Positions 3,421 through 30,129 of a stretch of DNA of 34,622 nucleotides are shown here, in pieces. Both the position numbers and the translations under genes were made by a program. Source of the DNA: Acidobacteriota bacterium (GTDB lineage: Bacteria; Acidobacteriota; Terriglobia; UBA7540); the NCBI GenBank assembly GCA_031292775.1, contig JARLGN010000623.1, positions 1 through 34,622 of the forward strand, given 5' to 3'. Each line of letters opens with the position of its first letter. Position 1 is the stretch's first letter. The notes beneath the pieces were generated by a model. The model was given only the letters and a program-made list of their open reading frames with translations, was not told the DNA's origin and did no database searches.

Positions 3421-4350
3421 TTATTCCGTGGCAGAACTGATGGTAAAGTCTCCCTTCGGGAGTCGTCCCAGCAGCCCATCCCGAACTCCTTTTAACTCCC
3501 CCGCAACACACGCCCACTGACCACCGGCCGCGATTTTAGCGATCCGCCACGCTGTGCGCAGGGGAACAAGCAGGACGCAACAGACGAGCTGGACGAAATT
3601 CGCGTGGCGCCGCACGGTCCAGAGATGATTGCGGGTTATCAAATATCGAACTCTTGCGGGCTGCCTGTTCTGCGTGTGGGAAACAGCATGCCAGAGCTTC
3701 GCGGTCGGGCAGAGGATGAGAGAAAAACCTGCGCCTCGGCAACGCAGCGACCAATCGATGTCCTCCACGTACGCAAAATATTCCGGGTCAAATCCCCCGA
3801 CCTTTCGGGCAATCTCCCTCGGCATGAGGATGCAGCAGCCAGACGCGTATTCCGCCTCCCCGCAAGAGTCGAAACTACCATCATCGACCCGATTGTACGC
3901 GATATTAGAGAAGATCCCTGTCCAAAGACTCACGCGCCCGACGGTAAACCACAGCCGCGTAGGATCGCTTTCCCAATAGATCTTGGGAATTACTGCCGCG
4001 CGGCCACCGTGCTCCGTGGCGCACGCAATCATATTTGAAATCATGGCAGGATCGACGCGCGTATCGTTATTCAGCATGAGGATGTAATCTGCGCCGCGGT
4101 CCAGCCCCCATTTGGCTCCCTGGTTCGACGCTGCGGCAAATCCCAGATTACTCGCGTTCCTGAGAATCTCAACATCGGGGAATGCTCCGGCGATCGCTTC
4201 GATTGATCCGTCCGTAGAGCCGTTGTCAACCACCAGGCATTGAATATCGACGCAGTCGGATTGTCGCAGACTCTCAAGGCAACGGCGGGTCACATCTCCG
4301 CCGTTCCAATTCAAGATGACCACTACAATTTTTTTCATGGCTTTACTCAT
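3421..4350 (-). CDS. GT2-family glycosyltransferase (rhamnosyltransferase-like)
   Basis: About 309 aa from ATG 4350. An inverting GT-A fold glycosyltransferase. The N-terminus has VVVILNWNGGD, then CLVVDNGSTDGS (nucleotide-binding Asp), NLGFAAASNQGAK, and LMLNNDTRVDP with a DxD-like metal site. FDPEYFAYVEDIDWSLR holds the acceptor-side ED/E motif typical of WbbL-like rhamnosyltransferases. Since the cluster makes dTDP-rhamnose, rhamnose transfer is a reasonable but unproven guess. The frame could start at a TTG at 4416, but ATG 4350 is preceded by a GGGTG Shine-Dalgarno and directly starts the domain. It follows the GT4 gene closely in the operon, with a gap of about 62 nt. Confidence 0.9.
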   Translation of the reverse strand: MSKAMKKIVVVILNWNGGDVTRRCLESLRQSDCVDIQCLVVDNGSTDGSIEAIAGAFPDVEILRNASNLGFAAASNQGAKWGLDRGADYILMLNNDTRVDPAMISNMIACATEHGGRAAVIPKIYWESDPTRLWFTVGRVSLWTGIFSNIAYNRVDDGSFDSCGEAEYASGCCILMPREIARKVGGFDPEYFAYVEDIDWSLRCRGAGFSLILCPTAKLWHAVSHTQNRQPARVRYLITRNHLWTVRRHANFVQLVCCVLLVPLRTAWRIAKIAAGGQWACVAGELKGVRDGLLGRLPKGDFTISSATE

Positions 4351-4412
4351 TTGGGCGGTGCACCCTGCCCGGCACGCCGAATGGACCGGAAAGCCATACG
4401 AAGGCGCGGGAA

Positions 4413-5636
4413 TCAAGCATTTCTTGTTCTTTTCTCCACGAGTGCGAGCAGTTTGGGTTCAACGTCGTCCACGATTTTCTTCCATGTGTATTTCTCTTCG
4501 ATCCGCCGCCGCGCCGCGCCGGCCATCTGGGCTCGCTTCCTGGGATCGCGAAGCAAATTAATCACCTGGTCACCAAAATCCGTTTCGGAATCGGCTATCA
4601 AGACTTGCTCTCCATCTACGACGTCAATTCCCTGACACCCAATGGGGGTGGCAACGACGGGAACCCCGCTGGCCATTGCCTCCAACACCTTGAGTTTGGT
4701 GCCTTCCCCGAACCGGTACGGCGCCACAGCCACGGCTGCGCGTGCATAGTACGGCCGAGTGTCCTCCACGGTTCCGGTCACATGAATACCTGGGACCTTT
4801 TCCAAGTCCCGGATTTCCTGGTTGGGATTGCTGCCCACAATCCAAAATTCCGCGTCAGGAATTTCCTTTCGAACCGCGGGAAAAACTGTTTGGGCAAACC
4901 ACAACGCCGCCAGTCGATTCCGAAAAACGCCCAATCCTCCACATAGAATTATGGTGTTTGAATCTTTCTGCGCCGTCAGCAGGGACGTGTAAGAATCCGC
5001 ATCGATCCCATTGGGAACGGTCCATAGGCCCACATTGGCCGGAATAAAGCTCCGCGCAAATTCTGTCTCCCGGTCGGAAGCGCAGAGAATGGCAGCGATC
5101 CGCGAGACCAATCTTTTTTGGAACCAAGCAACTTTGAGCACGTTGAGAAGACCAAAGACCCGCATCGCCACATTGCCGCGGCGCATGTATTGGCGCCACA
5201 AAAGGCCTTCCGACTCATGTTCGTCAAACACCACGGGAGTGCTTTTCGCCACTTTGCTGGGGACAGAATCCGCAAGAAAGGCAAAGTTAGCCAGAATCAG
5301 ATCAAAATGCTGATCGGCGAGAATCTCTCGAATAACACGCCGAATCTCATTGCTACCAAACTTCGAGTTGGTATAGGGATATGGCGAAAACAGGGCCCGC
5401 AGACCTGATAACAGAGCGTTTGACCGCTGTGAACTGGCGGGCGGGCGGTAGTACGCCACATGTTTGCAAAGTACCGCTACAGGATTATCAGGTGAAGGAG
5501 TTGGACCTGAGTTGCCTGCCAGCAGATAGATTTCGTGCCCACGACTCGATAGTTCCTTCAGAATCCCAAATATTCGAATCATGTTGCCACCATAAAGTGG
5601 CCAGGGGAAAAAGGGTGAAAGTACAAGAATCCTCAT
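4413..5636 (-). CDS. GT4-family glycosyltransferase
   Basis: 407 aa, GT-B fold. The N-terminal strand MRILVLSPFFPWPLYGGN (residues 1-18) contains the glycine-rich acceptor loop. The C-terminal donor domain shows TIILCGGLGVFRNR, FWIVGSNP, IHVTGTVEDTRPYYA and GEGTKLKVLEAMASGVPVV, which includes the family's conserved glutamate, followed by ATPIGCQGIDV. This is the architecture of glycosyltransferases that extend undecaprenyl-linked oligosaccharides on the cytoplasmic face. The ATG at 5636 has a GGCGGAG Shine-Dalgarno about 5 nt away. Immediately upstream lies a broken copy of the 5' end of a related gene (5646-5796). Donor and linkage are unknown. Confidence 0.9.
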   Translation of the reverse strand: MRILVLSPFFPWPLYGGNMIRIFGILKELSSRGHEIYLLAGNSGPTPSPDNPVAVLCKHVAYYRPPASSQRSNALLSGLRALFSPYPYTNSKFGSNEIRRVIREILADQHFDLILANFAFLADSVPSKVAKSTPVVFDEHESEGLLWRQYMRRGNVAMRVFGLLNVLKVAWFQKRLVSRIAAILCASDRETEFARSFIPANVGLWTVPNGIDADSYTSLLTAQKDSNTIILCGGLGVFRNRLAALWFAQTVFPAVRKEIPDAEFWIVGSNPNQEIRDLEKVPGIHVTGTVEDTRPYYARAAVAVAPYRFGEGTKLKVLEAMASGVPVVATPIGCQGIDVVDGEQVLIADSETDFGDQVINLLRDPRKRAQMAGAARRRIEEKYTWKKIVDDVEPKLLALVEKRTRNA

Positions 5637-5645
5637 TAACTCCGC

Positions 5646-5796
5646 CTAGTGCTCAGGTTTCCAAATCCCAACGCCGGCCAACCGGACAATCTCATGCCCG
5701 CATCTCGCAAGCTCGCGCAGGATGCCATCTATCCGAACCACATTCCCGCACGAAAGCGGCCAGGTGAAGAAGCGGTGAAAGTACAAAGATCCTCAT
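5646..5796 (-). pseudogene. Frameshifted 5'-end relic of a GT4 glycosyltransferase gene
   Basis: This 151-nt stretch begins ATG-AGG and reads MRIFVLSPLL. After one extra base it continues in a second frame as FTWPLSCGNVVRIDGILREL and then CGHEIVRLAG, ending at a TAG at 5646-5648. It matches the first 41 or so residues of the next gene (MRILVLSPFF / PWPLYGGNMIRIFGILKEL / RGHEIYLLAG) at roughly 30 of 41 positions once the shift is allowed for. The rest of the gene is absent, and the intact relative starts only about 10 nt further downstream in the transcript. The moderate identity suggests an old allele or paralogue rather than a fresh duplication. Confidence 0.75.
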
Positions 5797-7144: not shown

Positions 7145-8224
7145 CTAGGCGTCAATGGCTTTTACGCCGAGATCTTTATGGCCCAGGCTCGGTGGGGGCG
7201 CGAGCCTATACCCCAATCTTATCATTGGCTTTTCGATAAAGTAGAAACTAAGAGCAGCCACGCCGAAAAGAGCCAGCAATTGCATGGAGGACCAGGGGAG
7301 GAACCTTTCGAACGTGAACAATTGCTGCCAAATATAGAGGCTGTAAGAAAGCCTCCCAATCCAACGAAGTACAGAGAATTCCAACAGGCGCCCAAGCCAG
7401 GTATGCGGATTCAACATCGTCGCGACAATAAGAAATGGCATAAGCATGGACTGAATCGATCTGCCACTTGGGGTATAAGTACGACCGCCCGTGACCAAAA
7501 TAATCACAACAATTACGGCAACAGCCCCCACAGTAAGATATTTCGCGAGCCACTTGGTCAGTTTTGGGGATTCGAGCGCGAGGGCGAAAAGGCATCCAAG
7601 CAGGAGACCATCAAAACAGACTTCTGCGCGCTCCCACTCTCCCTGCCCGAGCGTGGCGCCCCCAATATGATGGAAAGCAATCAAGCGCCAAACCCATATC
7701 CCAAGGATAAGAATCGACGCGGTATACCTCGCACGATATAAACCGAAAAGCACTAAAAGGGCCGGCCAGATCAGGTAAAACTGCTCCTCGACTGATAGGG
7801 TCCAATAATGAACATCGATAACGGTGCCCCCCGCCGGCATATAGTTCCGGAAAAAACAAAGAGCGGAAAGCCAATATTTCAAACTGAATGGCAAAACACC
7901 TGCCAGACCCAAAAAGGCAACGATGAGCAGGTAAGTGGTTGCGGGAGGCAGAATCCGGCAAACTCTCCGCACATAAAAGCGCTTCAGACTAATTCGCCCT
8001 GAGCAATTCGATTCCTCAATCAAGCGTGAGGTGATCAGAAATCCACTGATGGCGAAAAAGAGTTGGACGCCTTTTACACCACTTCCGGTTAGGACCCAAT
8101 AAACCCAATGAGGCATCTGCTTGATTACGCTCGCCGAATAAGCGAAATGGGAAAAAATCACCGCCAGGACCGCGAAAGCCCGCCAGCCATCGAGCGTAGG
8201 AAGATACCCTACTGGTTTCGCCAT
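7145..8224 (-). CDS. Acyltransferase-3 family integral membrane protein
   Basis: 359 aa with many hydrophobic helices and all the landmarks of the family: LDGWRAFAVLAVIFSH (residues 11-26, catalytic-type His26), VQLFFAISGFLITSRLIEE, FYVRRVCRILPP, YWTLSVEEQFYLIWP, RLSYSLYIWQQ and FYFIEKPMIRLGYR. Expected to O-acylate a sugar of the polysaccharide across or within the cytoplasmic membrane. The ATG at 8224 has an AGGGAG Shine-Dalgarno 6-7 nt upstream. The gene lies between a truncated relic of a glycosyltransferase (8278-8442) and an intact relative of that same glycosyltransferase (5844-7019). This suggests it came in as a replacement or insertion. Confidence 0.93.
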   Translation of the reverse strand: MAKPVGYLPTLDGWRAFAVLAVIFSHFAYSASVIKQMPHWVYWVLTGSGVKGVQLFFAISGFLITSRLIEESNCSGRISLKRFYVRRVCRILPPATTYLLIVAFLGLAGVLPFSLKYWLSALCFFRNYMPAGGTVIDVHYWTLSVEEQFYLIWPALLVLFGLYRARYTASILILGIWVWRLIAFHHIGGATLGQGEWERAEVCFDGLLLGCLFALALESPKLTKWLAKYLTVGAVAVIVVIILVTGGRTYTPSGRSIQSMLMPFLIVATMLNPHTWLGRLLEFSVLRWIGRLSYSLYIWQQLFTFERFLPWSSMQLLALFGVAALSFYFIEKPMIRLGYRLAPPPSLGHKDLGVKAIDA

Positions 8225-8277: not shown

Positions 8278-8442
8278 ATTTGTTCCATAGCAGGCATTCA
8301 GCCGGGCCAAGTCTACTTTGCCCATGGTGATGAGGGTAACGTCCTAGTCCTTTTTCACCGCCTCGATCGTCCACAGGACAAGCAACTTCGAGCCCCCCAA
8401 GCCCATTCCGAGGTGCATGACGGCTATCTTACGCGGCCGCAT
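8278..8442 (-). pseudogene. 5'-end relic of a GT4 glycosyltransferase gene with in-frame stop
   Basis: Starting at an ATG (8440-8442) that overlaps the end of the FkbM gene, the frame reads MRPRKIAVMHLGMGLGGSK, then LLVLWTIEAVKKD, a TAG stop (8344-8346), then DVTLITMGKVDLARLNACYG. It aligns without gaps to residues 6-56 of the intact glycosyltransferase at 5844-7019 (RVAVVHPGMGLGGSE ... VLWTLEALKKDYDVTLITTG ... DLARLNTYYGT), about 36 of 51 positions identical. The TAG replaces a Tyr codon. Similarity ends near 8278 and the acyltransferase gene begins at 8224, so the remaining roughly 330 codons were lost. Confidence 0.85.
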
Positions 8443-9262
8443 GGGTCGAAGGTCTCCTCCGAGCAATCATTTGGATTTCATCTCGGCGCTGCATTTCGCT
8501 GATATCGTCAAAGCCCAGTGCCGCCATGAACTCTGTGATCATCGCCTGGGTCGTGCCCTTGGGCAAAAGGTAAGGATGCACCTCGCACACCACCAACTCA
8601 GTCGCCGGGTTGGAAAGCGTTTCCCGCAAGCCTCGAAGCACCACGTACTCAAAACCCTCCACATCGATTTTGACGACCCGTGGATAGGGAAGCCCGTGGG
8701 TCCTGCGAAAATCGTCCCCGTTCACGATCTCCACAGATTCGACCGACTCGCCTTCTTTGGGGGCGATTTCAGAGGGCATGAGTGAAGCGGCCGGTCTGTC
8801 CACAAAAAGTTGGCCCTTGCTGTTCTCCTCACCCAAGGCAGCCTTAAAGGCAGCGACGTTTTTCAAACTGTTCACGCTGATGTTGCGCTCCAGCATTTCA
8901 AAGTTATGGGTCTCAGGCTCAAAAGCCATCACCTTCCCCTTCTCACCCACAACAAGTGCGGAGAGTATGGTAAAGATCCCGATATTGGCCCCCACATCCA
9001 GAAAAACATCTCCACTGTGGAGACAAGGGAGTACTAATCGCAGGATTTCGTCCTCGAGCATAAGATTGAATTCCACCTGGACGAGTTTCGCCGGATTGGT
9101 GACGCGGAAAGCGGACTTGACCCCGTAAAGGTTGGACCGGTAGATTCCGCCGGATTGTGTCGCCATCTTGTAGTGCAGGCTGCGTAGCAAATCCGTAAGT
9201 TTGAGTGCCCTCAGAACACGTAAGACTCCGGGATTGTAAATGAATTTCTTTAGCCCGCTCAT
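8429..9262 (-). CDS. FkbM family SAM-dependent methyltransferase
   Basis: About 277 aa. The SAM-binding segment is VFLDVGANIGIFTILSA, followed by VMAFEPETHNFEML and the FkbM signature VVKIDVEGFEYVVLRGL. A likely sugar O-methyltransferase. It is a paralogue of the protein at 2376-3266: the two share the N-terminal LKKxxYNPxVxRxxRALxL pattern and similar C-termini. ATG 9262 (MSGLKKF) has GAGAGG 4-5 nt upstream, whereas the upstream in-frame ATG at 9274 lacks a good site. Its stop codon lies inside the start of the glycosyltransferase relic, an overlap typical of a once-coupled gene pair. Confidence 0.9.
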   Translation of the reverse strand: MSGLKKFIYNPGVLRVLRALKLTDLLRSLHYKMATQSGGIYRSNLYGVKSAFRVTNPAKLVQVEFNLMLEDEILRLVLPCLHSGDVFLDVGANIGIFTILSALVVGEKGKVMAFEPETHNFEMLERNISVNSLKNVAAFKAALGEENSKGQLFVDRPAASLMPSEIAPKEGESVESVEIVNGDDFRRTHGLPYPRVVKIDVEGFEYVVLRGLRETLSNPATELVVCEVHPYLLPKGTTQAMITEFMAALGFDDISEMQRRDEIQMIARRRPSTHAAA

Positions 9263-9313
9263 CGAACCTCTCATTCTTATAAGGAAAGGATCCTATTCTT
9301 TTCCTGCCCGTCG

Positions 9314-28375: not shown

Positions 28376-29758
28376 CTATAAAGCGCGCAAGAAAGCTACG
28401 AGGTCATCCTTTTCCTGGGCGGCCAGGTGGAGCTGTTGAATAAGGTTGAAGTATTCCACCGTATCCTCAAGGGTGAAGCACCGCCCGTCGTGCAGGTAGG
28501 GTGGGGAGTCCTTGATGCCTCGCAAGGGGAACGTCTTAATGGGACCGTCGGCATCCATCAACATGCCATTCACCATTTCCTGCCTGTAAAACCGCTCCGC
28601 CCTGAGGTTGTGCATGCTGTTATCGGTGTAGTAGGGGGCAGGATGGCAGAAAGCGCACCGGCCCTTTCCGTTAAAGATGGCCTCACCGCGTAGTTCACTT
28701 GGGGTGGCCTTGGTGCGATCGAGTTCGCCGTAAATATCAAGCTTGGGAGCGGGAGGGAAATCCAGGATCTCCATGAATTCCGCCATGGCATGAACCTGGG
28801 AACCCCTTTCCAGAATGTTAACCCCTTTCTTGGCGGCCATGGCGATGTCGCCGTCGAAATAGGCGGCGCGCTGTTCAAATTCGGTAAAGTCCTCCACCGT
28901 TTTAAGGGCACGCTGAGAACCGAAGAGCCGTTGGATGTTCACTCCCCGCAGGGAAGGCGTTTGGATGCGGTGCCTGAATTCCTGGGGTCGGATGTCTCCC
29001 ACCAGATGGTTCGCCGCGTTGGTATGGCCGTTCACATGACAGTCGAAACACGTTACGCCCAGGCTCGGGCGGTCCGTCCGCCGGTCCTCCGTCGCATTGA
29101 ATTGCTGTTGGGGAAACTGGGTCACCAGAAGGCGCAGACCTTCAAGCTGCTTGGGGTTCAAAATCCCATTGAATATCTCATAGTAGTTATCGATGGTAAT
29201 GATGCGTCCTTTAGCCACATCACCAAGGTCGGGCCGGGTGGTGAGGTAAATTGCGGGGGCCGGGTCTGGAATGAATTGTTCAGGCAGATCGAAATCCAAA
29301 TCAAACCGAACCAGCCGGGGCAGTGGTTTCGTGGTCATGTCCGGAAAGAGCATGCCCCCTTCCGCGTGGTCGGCAAACGGTAACGGTTTGTACGGGAAAA
29401 CCCCCTTCTCTTTGATTTGTTCGGGGGACATGTTGTTAAGCTGCTCCCACGTCACGCCTCGGAGGTTGGCTGTCGGTCCCACGGGGATGGGTTTCCCCCC
29501 CGACATGAAAACCTCGCCCCTGGTTCTCTTGGCGAGCACATAACGGGAGCTCAGCATTTCCATGTGCTCTTTGGCTCGCGCGGCTTTTACTGCCATGCGT
29601 GCGGCTTTGATTTGGTCGAAGGAAACATCCTGATTCGTCGGTCCATAGCTGGAGACGACCGTCCCCTGCTGGGCATGAACGAGAACCGTGGCGGCCCCCA
29701 CGACCAACAGAATACAGATCCCAATTAACATCATGGAGTAGGTCTTTTTTCCGCTCAT
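28376..29758 (-). CDS. Di-heme cytochrome c, MauG/cytochrome c peroxidase-like
   Basis: 460 aa from ATG 29758, which follows AAGGAGG at 8 nt (an ATG at 29842 lacks a site). N-terminal signal segment (MMLIGICILLVVGAATVLVHAQQ), so the protein is exported to the periplasm. Two CXXCH heme c motifs: CFDCH (237-241) and CAFCH (368-372). The C-terminal FPLRGIKDSPPYLHDGRCFT followed by TLEDTVEYFN corresponds to the conserved TPSLRNV..PYFHDG..TLEEAV region of the MauG/peroxidase family. A redox role is clear; the substrate is not. It is single, between gene-poor regions, and does not look like part of the polysaccharide operon. Confidence 0.88.
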   Translation of the reverse strand: MSGKKTYSMMLIGICILLVVGAATVLVHAQQGTVVSSYGPTNQDVSFDQIKAARMAVKAARAKEHMEMLSSRYVLAKRTRGEVFMSGGKPIPVGPTANLRGVTWEQLNNMSPEQIKEKGVFPYKPLPFADHAEGGMLFPDMTTKPLPRLVRFDLDFDLPEQFIPDPAPAIYLTTRPDLGDVAKGRIITIDNYYEIFNGILNPKQLEGLRLLVTQFPQQQFNATEDRRTDRPSLGVTCFDCHVNGHTNAANHLVGDIRPQEFRHRIQTPSLRGVNIQRLFGSQRALKTVEDFTEFEQRAAYFDGDIAMAAKKGVNILERGSQVHAMAEFMEILDFPPAPKLDIYGELDRTKATPSELRGEAIFNGKGRCAFCHPAPYYTDNSMHNLRAERFYRQEMVNGMLMDADGPIKTFPLRGIKDSPPYLHDGRCFTLEDTVEYFNLIQQLHLAAQEKDDLVAFLRAL

Positions 29759-30129
29759 TCTGCAGTCCTCCTTGCTCTGCTCTAGTTTGGGCCGACACGC
29801 CGAAACCTGCGTGACGGTCGGCCAAAGAACCGGAATTTCCATTACCGACCTCCGGCCCCACGGCTAACCTACACCTGACCGCCGCGGGATGCAATTGTAC
29901 TTATCGGGTGGCTTCGCGACTCGGGATTAGGGTTTAGGGATTCGGGATTCGGGCACCGGGGTGGGCCTGAACGGTCGCCGACATGCCAATGCCGCAGAGG
30001 GCGCAGGGAAAACAGAGAAGTTGTGGTTTGCAAGGCTTCGCGCCTTTGCGTGTTGGCGTGGCGTCTTCAGTGCGGCGTCTTTGGGCTTTGGGCGCCTCTC
30101 GCGCAGAGGTTGTGGTATGCTCTGCGCAA
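29759..30129. other. Divergent intergenic region with GGGATTCGGG-type direct repeats
   Basis: This stretch lies between the divergently transcribed cytochrome and methylase-relic/HEPN-like genes. It holds an imperfect hairpin near the cytochrome leader (29791-29822, GCCGAC/GTCGGC outer arms), then overlapping near-repeats of GGGATT(C)GGG at 29921-29960, then a segment rich in GCGCAGAGG/CCTTTGCG words at 29990-30115. The same GATTCGGG unit recurs in reverse at about 31607-31632. No ORF is supported, and no clear promoter is visible for either side. Confidence 0.45.

Follow-up and report, generated by a model that had tools for sequence, protein, structure and literature searches.

A frameshifted glycosyltransferase stub in front of its intact relative in an acidobacterial exopolysaccharide cluster, a possible trace of gene replacement

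Remnants of displaced genes have been described in the O-antigen clusters of Salmonella, where one wzy gene has given rise to different remnants through serial deletions (PMC3715488). In pneumococci, the excerpted text of PMC5111408 reports that cps loci retain the first 153-174 nt of aliD. Our search of the literature on exopolysaccharide clusters of Acidobacteria returned nothing relevant. Here we describe two truncated glycosyltransferase genes, relic B and relic A, in such a cluster, with emphasis on relic B, which directly precedes an intact relative, gene B.

The window, that is, the whole stretch of DNA analysed, is a complete contig of 34.6 kb from a MAG of 5.48 Mb (657 contigs, 86% complete, 4.45% contamination). 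It carries an exopolysaccharide cluster of an uncultured acidobacterium (Terriglobia, Acidobacteriota), whose genes lie on the minus strand and encode a polysaccharide export protein, Wzz/tyrosine-kinase-type, TPR, Wzy/ligase-type and WecG-type proteins, a sugar transferase, a flippase-type protein, several glycosyltransferases, FkbM methyltransferases and acyltransferases. Judging from ORF translations, the region at 17-21 kb would hold deoxysugar (rml-type) genes. Elsewhere in the window, positions 28376-29842 encode a 488-aa protein that has no Pfam match at E 1e-3 despite two CxxCH heme-binding-type motifs (CFDCH and CAFCH). Both Pfam matches of gene B (Table 1) exceed the curated cut-off and correspond to the GT-B fold domains of GT4 families, which places its product in GT4; the relatives of gene B that bear names in GTDB are 'Terriglobia bacterium' MAGs. 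The overlap between gene B and the following GT2 gene leaves no space in which a displaced B could have kept a 3' relic; no 3' relics of displaced genes were found, and the spacers gave no match.

Table 1. Coordinates of the features in the window and of the stubs found in the surveyed loci
Feature	Position	Strand	Evidence or context
GT2 glycosyltransferase gene	3421..4416	-	shares 4 nt with the end of gene B
Gene B, intact GT4 glycosyltransferase, 407 aa	4413..5636	-	PF13692 (E 5.3e-29), PF13439 (E 3.9e-8)
Junction: non-homologous relic tail, TAG and 9 nt	5637..5672	-	sequence
Relic B, frameshifted GT4 5' stub, ~41 codons	5673..5796	-	one inserted base; similarity to gene B
Gene A, intact GT4-type glycosyltransferase, 391 aa	5844..7019	-	PF00534 (E 8e-15)
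Acyltransferase gene (PF01757), between relic A and gene A	7145..8224	-	profile match
Relic A, ~55-codon 5' stub (gene A family) with one in-frame TAG	8278..8442	-	alignment
FkbM methyltransferase gene (PF05050), 3' end overlapping relic A	8429..9274	-	profile match
5' stub in G002, 79 codons, in-frame stop	G002:C122, L099 15318-15082		12 nt before a same-strand intact GT4 gene (54% aa)
5' repeat in G006, 53 nt, 52/53 identical	G006:C632, L146 ~11091-10951		upstream of a GT2-like gene, one gene between
5' stub in G012, 26 codons			apparently not of a glycosyltransferase gene; 1.9 kb from its relative
Short 5' repeat in G008	L069		downstream
3' stub in G015, diverged, Wzy-like gene	G015:C511, L038 1247-1456		intact gene 34 nt upstream
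3' stub in G008	L037		downstream
3' stub in G055	L128		downstream
3' stub in G001	L043		upstream
3' stub in G030, weak	L183		upstream

Relic B starts with an ATG at 5796-5794, reads MRIFVLSPLL... in its first frame and, after a single-base insertion, continues as WPLSCGNVVRIDGILRELARCGHEIVRLAG in a second frame that ends with a TAG at 5648-5646. Alignment to gene B bears out the initial annotation, according to which two frames joined by one extra base reproduce about the first 41 residues of the next gene. The nucleotide similarity between them is far above chance, with an alignment score of 63 against 30 for the best of 500 shuffles. In a search of the whole genome relic B matched only its own place and gene B (E 6.5e-8, 76% over 78 nt), with no third copy of the sequence, and a blastx search with a fixed search space gave E 3e-7, reversed spacers giving no match. 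The similarity stops after about 41 codons, near position 5673; since the homology itself ends there, a sequencing error whose correction would restore one long frame is ruled out. The adjacency first described also stands, except that 9 nt rather than 10 separate the stop from the intact ATG at 5636, and a purine-rich stretch is present there. With significant similarity to a gene, truncation and frame damage, relic B is a pseudogene stub, and we propose that it has no function of its own and that gene B does the work. That it was retained as a leader coupling the translation of gene A to that of gene B is hardly credible. It does lie between two cistrons and has kept its ATG start, but gene B has its own purine-rich stretch immediately 5', and the relic is absent from all five B-carrying relatives (G001, G003, G004, G008 and G015), where B starts behind other spacers.

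Over 123 aligned sites, relic B matches gene B at 85 and the orthologue in G001, the closest genome (a sister species), at 91, while gene B matches that orthologue at 84. Relic B and gene B thus differ at 38 of the 123 sites (31%) and gene B and G001 B at 39; the identity of relic B is 69% to gene B and 74% to the G001 orthologue. The search match to the latter (73.6% over 129 nt, E 6e-16) is likewise stronger than that to gene B. Of the differences between relic B and gene B, 12, 5 and 21 fall at first, second and third codon positions, respectively (p 0.006 relative to a uniform distribution). As a fresh copy decaying neutrally would show no preference for third positions, this excess (21/38) indicates that most of the divergence of relic B predates its inactivation. 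Relic B is thus not a recent duplicate of gene B, the divergence having been gathered mostly under coding constraint.

The third-position bias would also be compatible with a long coexistence of two working genes, if B had been duplicated, or a second B acquired alongside, and the upstream copy had later been lost down to its 5' stub. The head-to-tail, directly abutting arrangement fits such old tandem paralogues, and an AU test on maximum-likelihood trees of the 123-nt relic rejected none of seven placements, including the one in which relic B and gene B are sisters. We nevertheless consider this history unlikely, though deserving of real weight. Gene B has single-copy orthologues (54-60% aa) in five genomes, and two close B copies were found in no genome of the family; moreover, relic B is slightly nearer to the single B of G001 than to the neighbouring gene B, and a step in similarity located at relic B, described below, is not predicted by tandem paralogy. 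Among discordant sites, 20 favour the pairing of relic B with G001 against 14, a difference that is not significant, and the position of gene B outside or inside the genus clade receives a tree support of only 51%. Over its first ~23 nt, relic B resembles gene B more closely than it does G001 (post-hoc p 0.012); a mosaic relic, gene B-like over these 23 nt and G001-like in the remainder, was considered as a crossover trace on this post-hoc value and set aside.

The step becomes apparent when the window is compared with G001. The nucleotide identity is 71% for the flippase gene, 74% for the acyltransferase gene and 78% for gene A, stays at the value given above for relic B, and falls to 61% for both gene B and the GT2 gene. 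Outside the cluster, the MurA region has 74.6% identity to G001, and the genome-typical level is 74-78%. At the protein level the identities are 80% (gene A), 76% (acyltransferase), 60% (gene B) and 57% (GT2). In a sister clade (G003, G004 and G008), A and B are conserved about equally (76% and 81% aa, respectively), so B does not simply evolve fast. On sequence grounds, the simplest reading would be that gene A belongs with relic B and that gene B came from elsewhere; a search for a donor genome of gene B found none. In G001, A is followed directly by B with no relic between them, and the A-B spacers of the window and G001 show no clear alignment outside the genes. Another GT4 gene of the window, at 1-1287, has 60-61% aa identity to G003/G008 versus 52% to G001, unlike gene A, and the cluster is a mosaic throughout. 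The abrupt change in similarity, in a MAG of the fragmentation, completeness and contamination given above, could also have been created by an assembly that joined two organisms at relic B. This is very improbable, as the two relics carry independent lesions (a frameshift and an in-frame stop, respectively) that would not be expected from a chimera, and the G+C content is alike on the two sides of relic B (54.8 and 53.0%).

The second relic named in the initial annotation, relic A, is indeed an N-terminal stub upstream of its relative, gene A, which it matches at 78% of nucleotides over 149 nt, a stronger match than that of relic B. It does not adjoin that relative, however, as a whole acyltransferase gene separates the two. 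Its differences from gene A at codon positions 1/2/3 number 9/6/18 (p 0.03). The FkbM gene lies upstream, its stop overlapping the ATG of relic A, and an equivalent overlap of an FkbM stop with the start of an intact glycosyltransferase gene is found in G015 (L041 4248-4261), where the FkbM C-terminus at the junction reads STHVAA* as compared with STHAAA* in the window. The overlap in the window is thus a retained ancestral junction.

The two relics bracket a single two-gene module (the acyltransferase gene and gene A) and could stem from one event instead of two replacements. A cassette made of the acyltransferase gene, A and the 5' end of B would have come from a G001-like donor into a host with the order FkbM - A - B, so that relic A would be the host remnant and relic B the truncated donor end. 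The retained FkbM junction of relic A agrees with this, as does the fact that the acyltransferase gene, A and relic B are G001-like and the flanks (FkbM on one side, B and GT2 on the other) are not. We find this single event rather unlikely, because an identity of 74-78% to G001 is genome-typical and makes the segment look as native as imported, and because the counterpart of the acyltransferase gene in G001 lies elsewhere in the cluster and does not adjoin A.

The explanation that we favour, with modest confidence somewhat above the even mark, is that relic B would be the stub of the lineage's own glycosyltransferase gene, displaced by a diverged homologue. It is preferred because relic B diverged as coding sequence, resembles the G001 orthologue at least as well as it resembles gene B, and lies at the similarity step. 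The absence of the relic from the five relatives and of two-copy genomes from the family was counted in its favour, as was the ancestral FkbM junction kept by relic A. Counted against it were the AU test, which rejected no placement, the 20 versus 14 sites, the first ~23 nt, the 51% support and the missing donor. We infer a horizontal origin of gene B, together with the order of events and the way in which the DNA was joined. The resident B orthologue would originally have stood behind gene A, an order still present in G001. The diverged gene B, apparently with the following GT2 gene, would then have arrived by horizontal exchange, the incoming DNA being joined to the resident copy just 3' of its codon ~41. 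What remained of the resident gene may have disappeared in that event or through a later deletion, and the stub would have gained its frameshift.

The initial annotation had gone further and suggested a repeated mode of gene replacement with crossovers near gene starts. Replacement remains the best reading, but its repeated mode finds no support, as none of the five B-carrying relatives shares the relic. We surveyed 172 loci (2.08 Mb with 987 spacers) from the genus, the family and the class, most of them surrounding glycosyltransferase genes, and compared every spacer with the genes of its own locus; reversed spacers gave no match in the first 112 loci. Matches of ~30% identity in long spacers were excluded by judgement as genes that had escaped the simple ORF caller or were cut at locus ends. 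Few stubs were found. Besides the relics of the window, G002, G006 and G012 each have a clear 5' stub that lies upstream of its intact relative (Table 1), and the G002 stub is the only other abutting one with the anatomy of relic B in the 172 loci, alongside which the survey yielded a handful of 3' stubs as well as recent partial duplications. The near-identity of the G006 repeat points to a recent partial duplication rather than to an old replacement scar; the gene between this repeat and the intact GT2-like gene looks like a putative GDP-mannose dehydratase gene. In all, 5'-end stubs lie upstream in five of six cases and 3'-end stubs downstream in three of four to five. These directions tend towards the expectation from insertion or replacement within a resident gene, in small numbers with recent partial duplications mixed in. 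We regard it as improbable that exchange preferentially joins near gene starts, with 5' stubs accumulating upstream of the incoming intact homologue and 3' stubs on its downstream side.

Within the survey, the G002 stub, from another species of the genus, resembles relic B in being truncated and placed directly before an intact same-strand GT4 gene, with an in-frame stop. It differs in deriving from another GT4 gene, for which the remaining genomes of the genus offer no close match. The G006 repeat is comparable to relic A, being a glycosyltransferase-like 5' end upstream with one gene between, but unlike relic A it is recent. As for the described systems, the wzy remnants of Salmonella share with relic B that a displaced surface-sugar gene persists at its site as a shortened remnant without function, the shortening being lineage-specific; the wzy that replaced it is found elsewhere in the Salmonella genome, whereas relic B is abutted by its homologue (PMC3715488). 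The aliD fragment differs from relic B in that aliD is not a glycosyltransferase gene, and the excerpted text mentions no abutting intact relative (PMC5111408).

Relic B is thus most likely a fresh example, from the Acidobacteriota, of a kind of scar already known from bacterial surface-sugar clusters. Such stubs would record both the earlier gene content of a surface-polysaccharide cluster and the site at which incoming DNA was joined. While a single case alters no general view, they may help to reconstruct how these clusters are reshuffled in an uncultured group (Terriglobia, Acidobacteriota).
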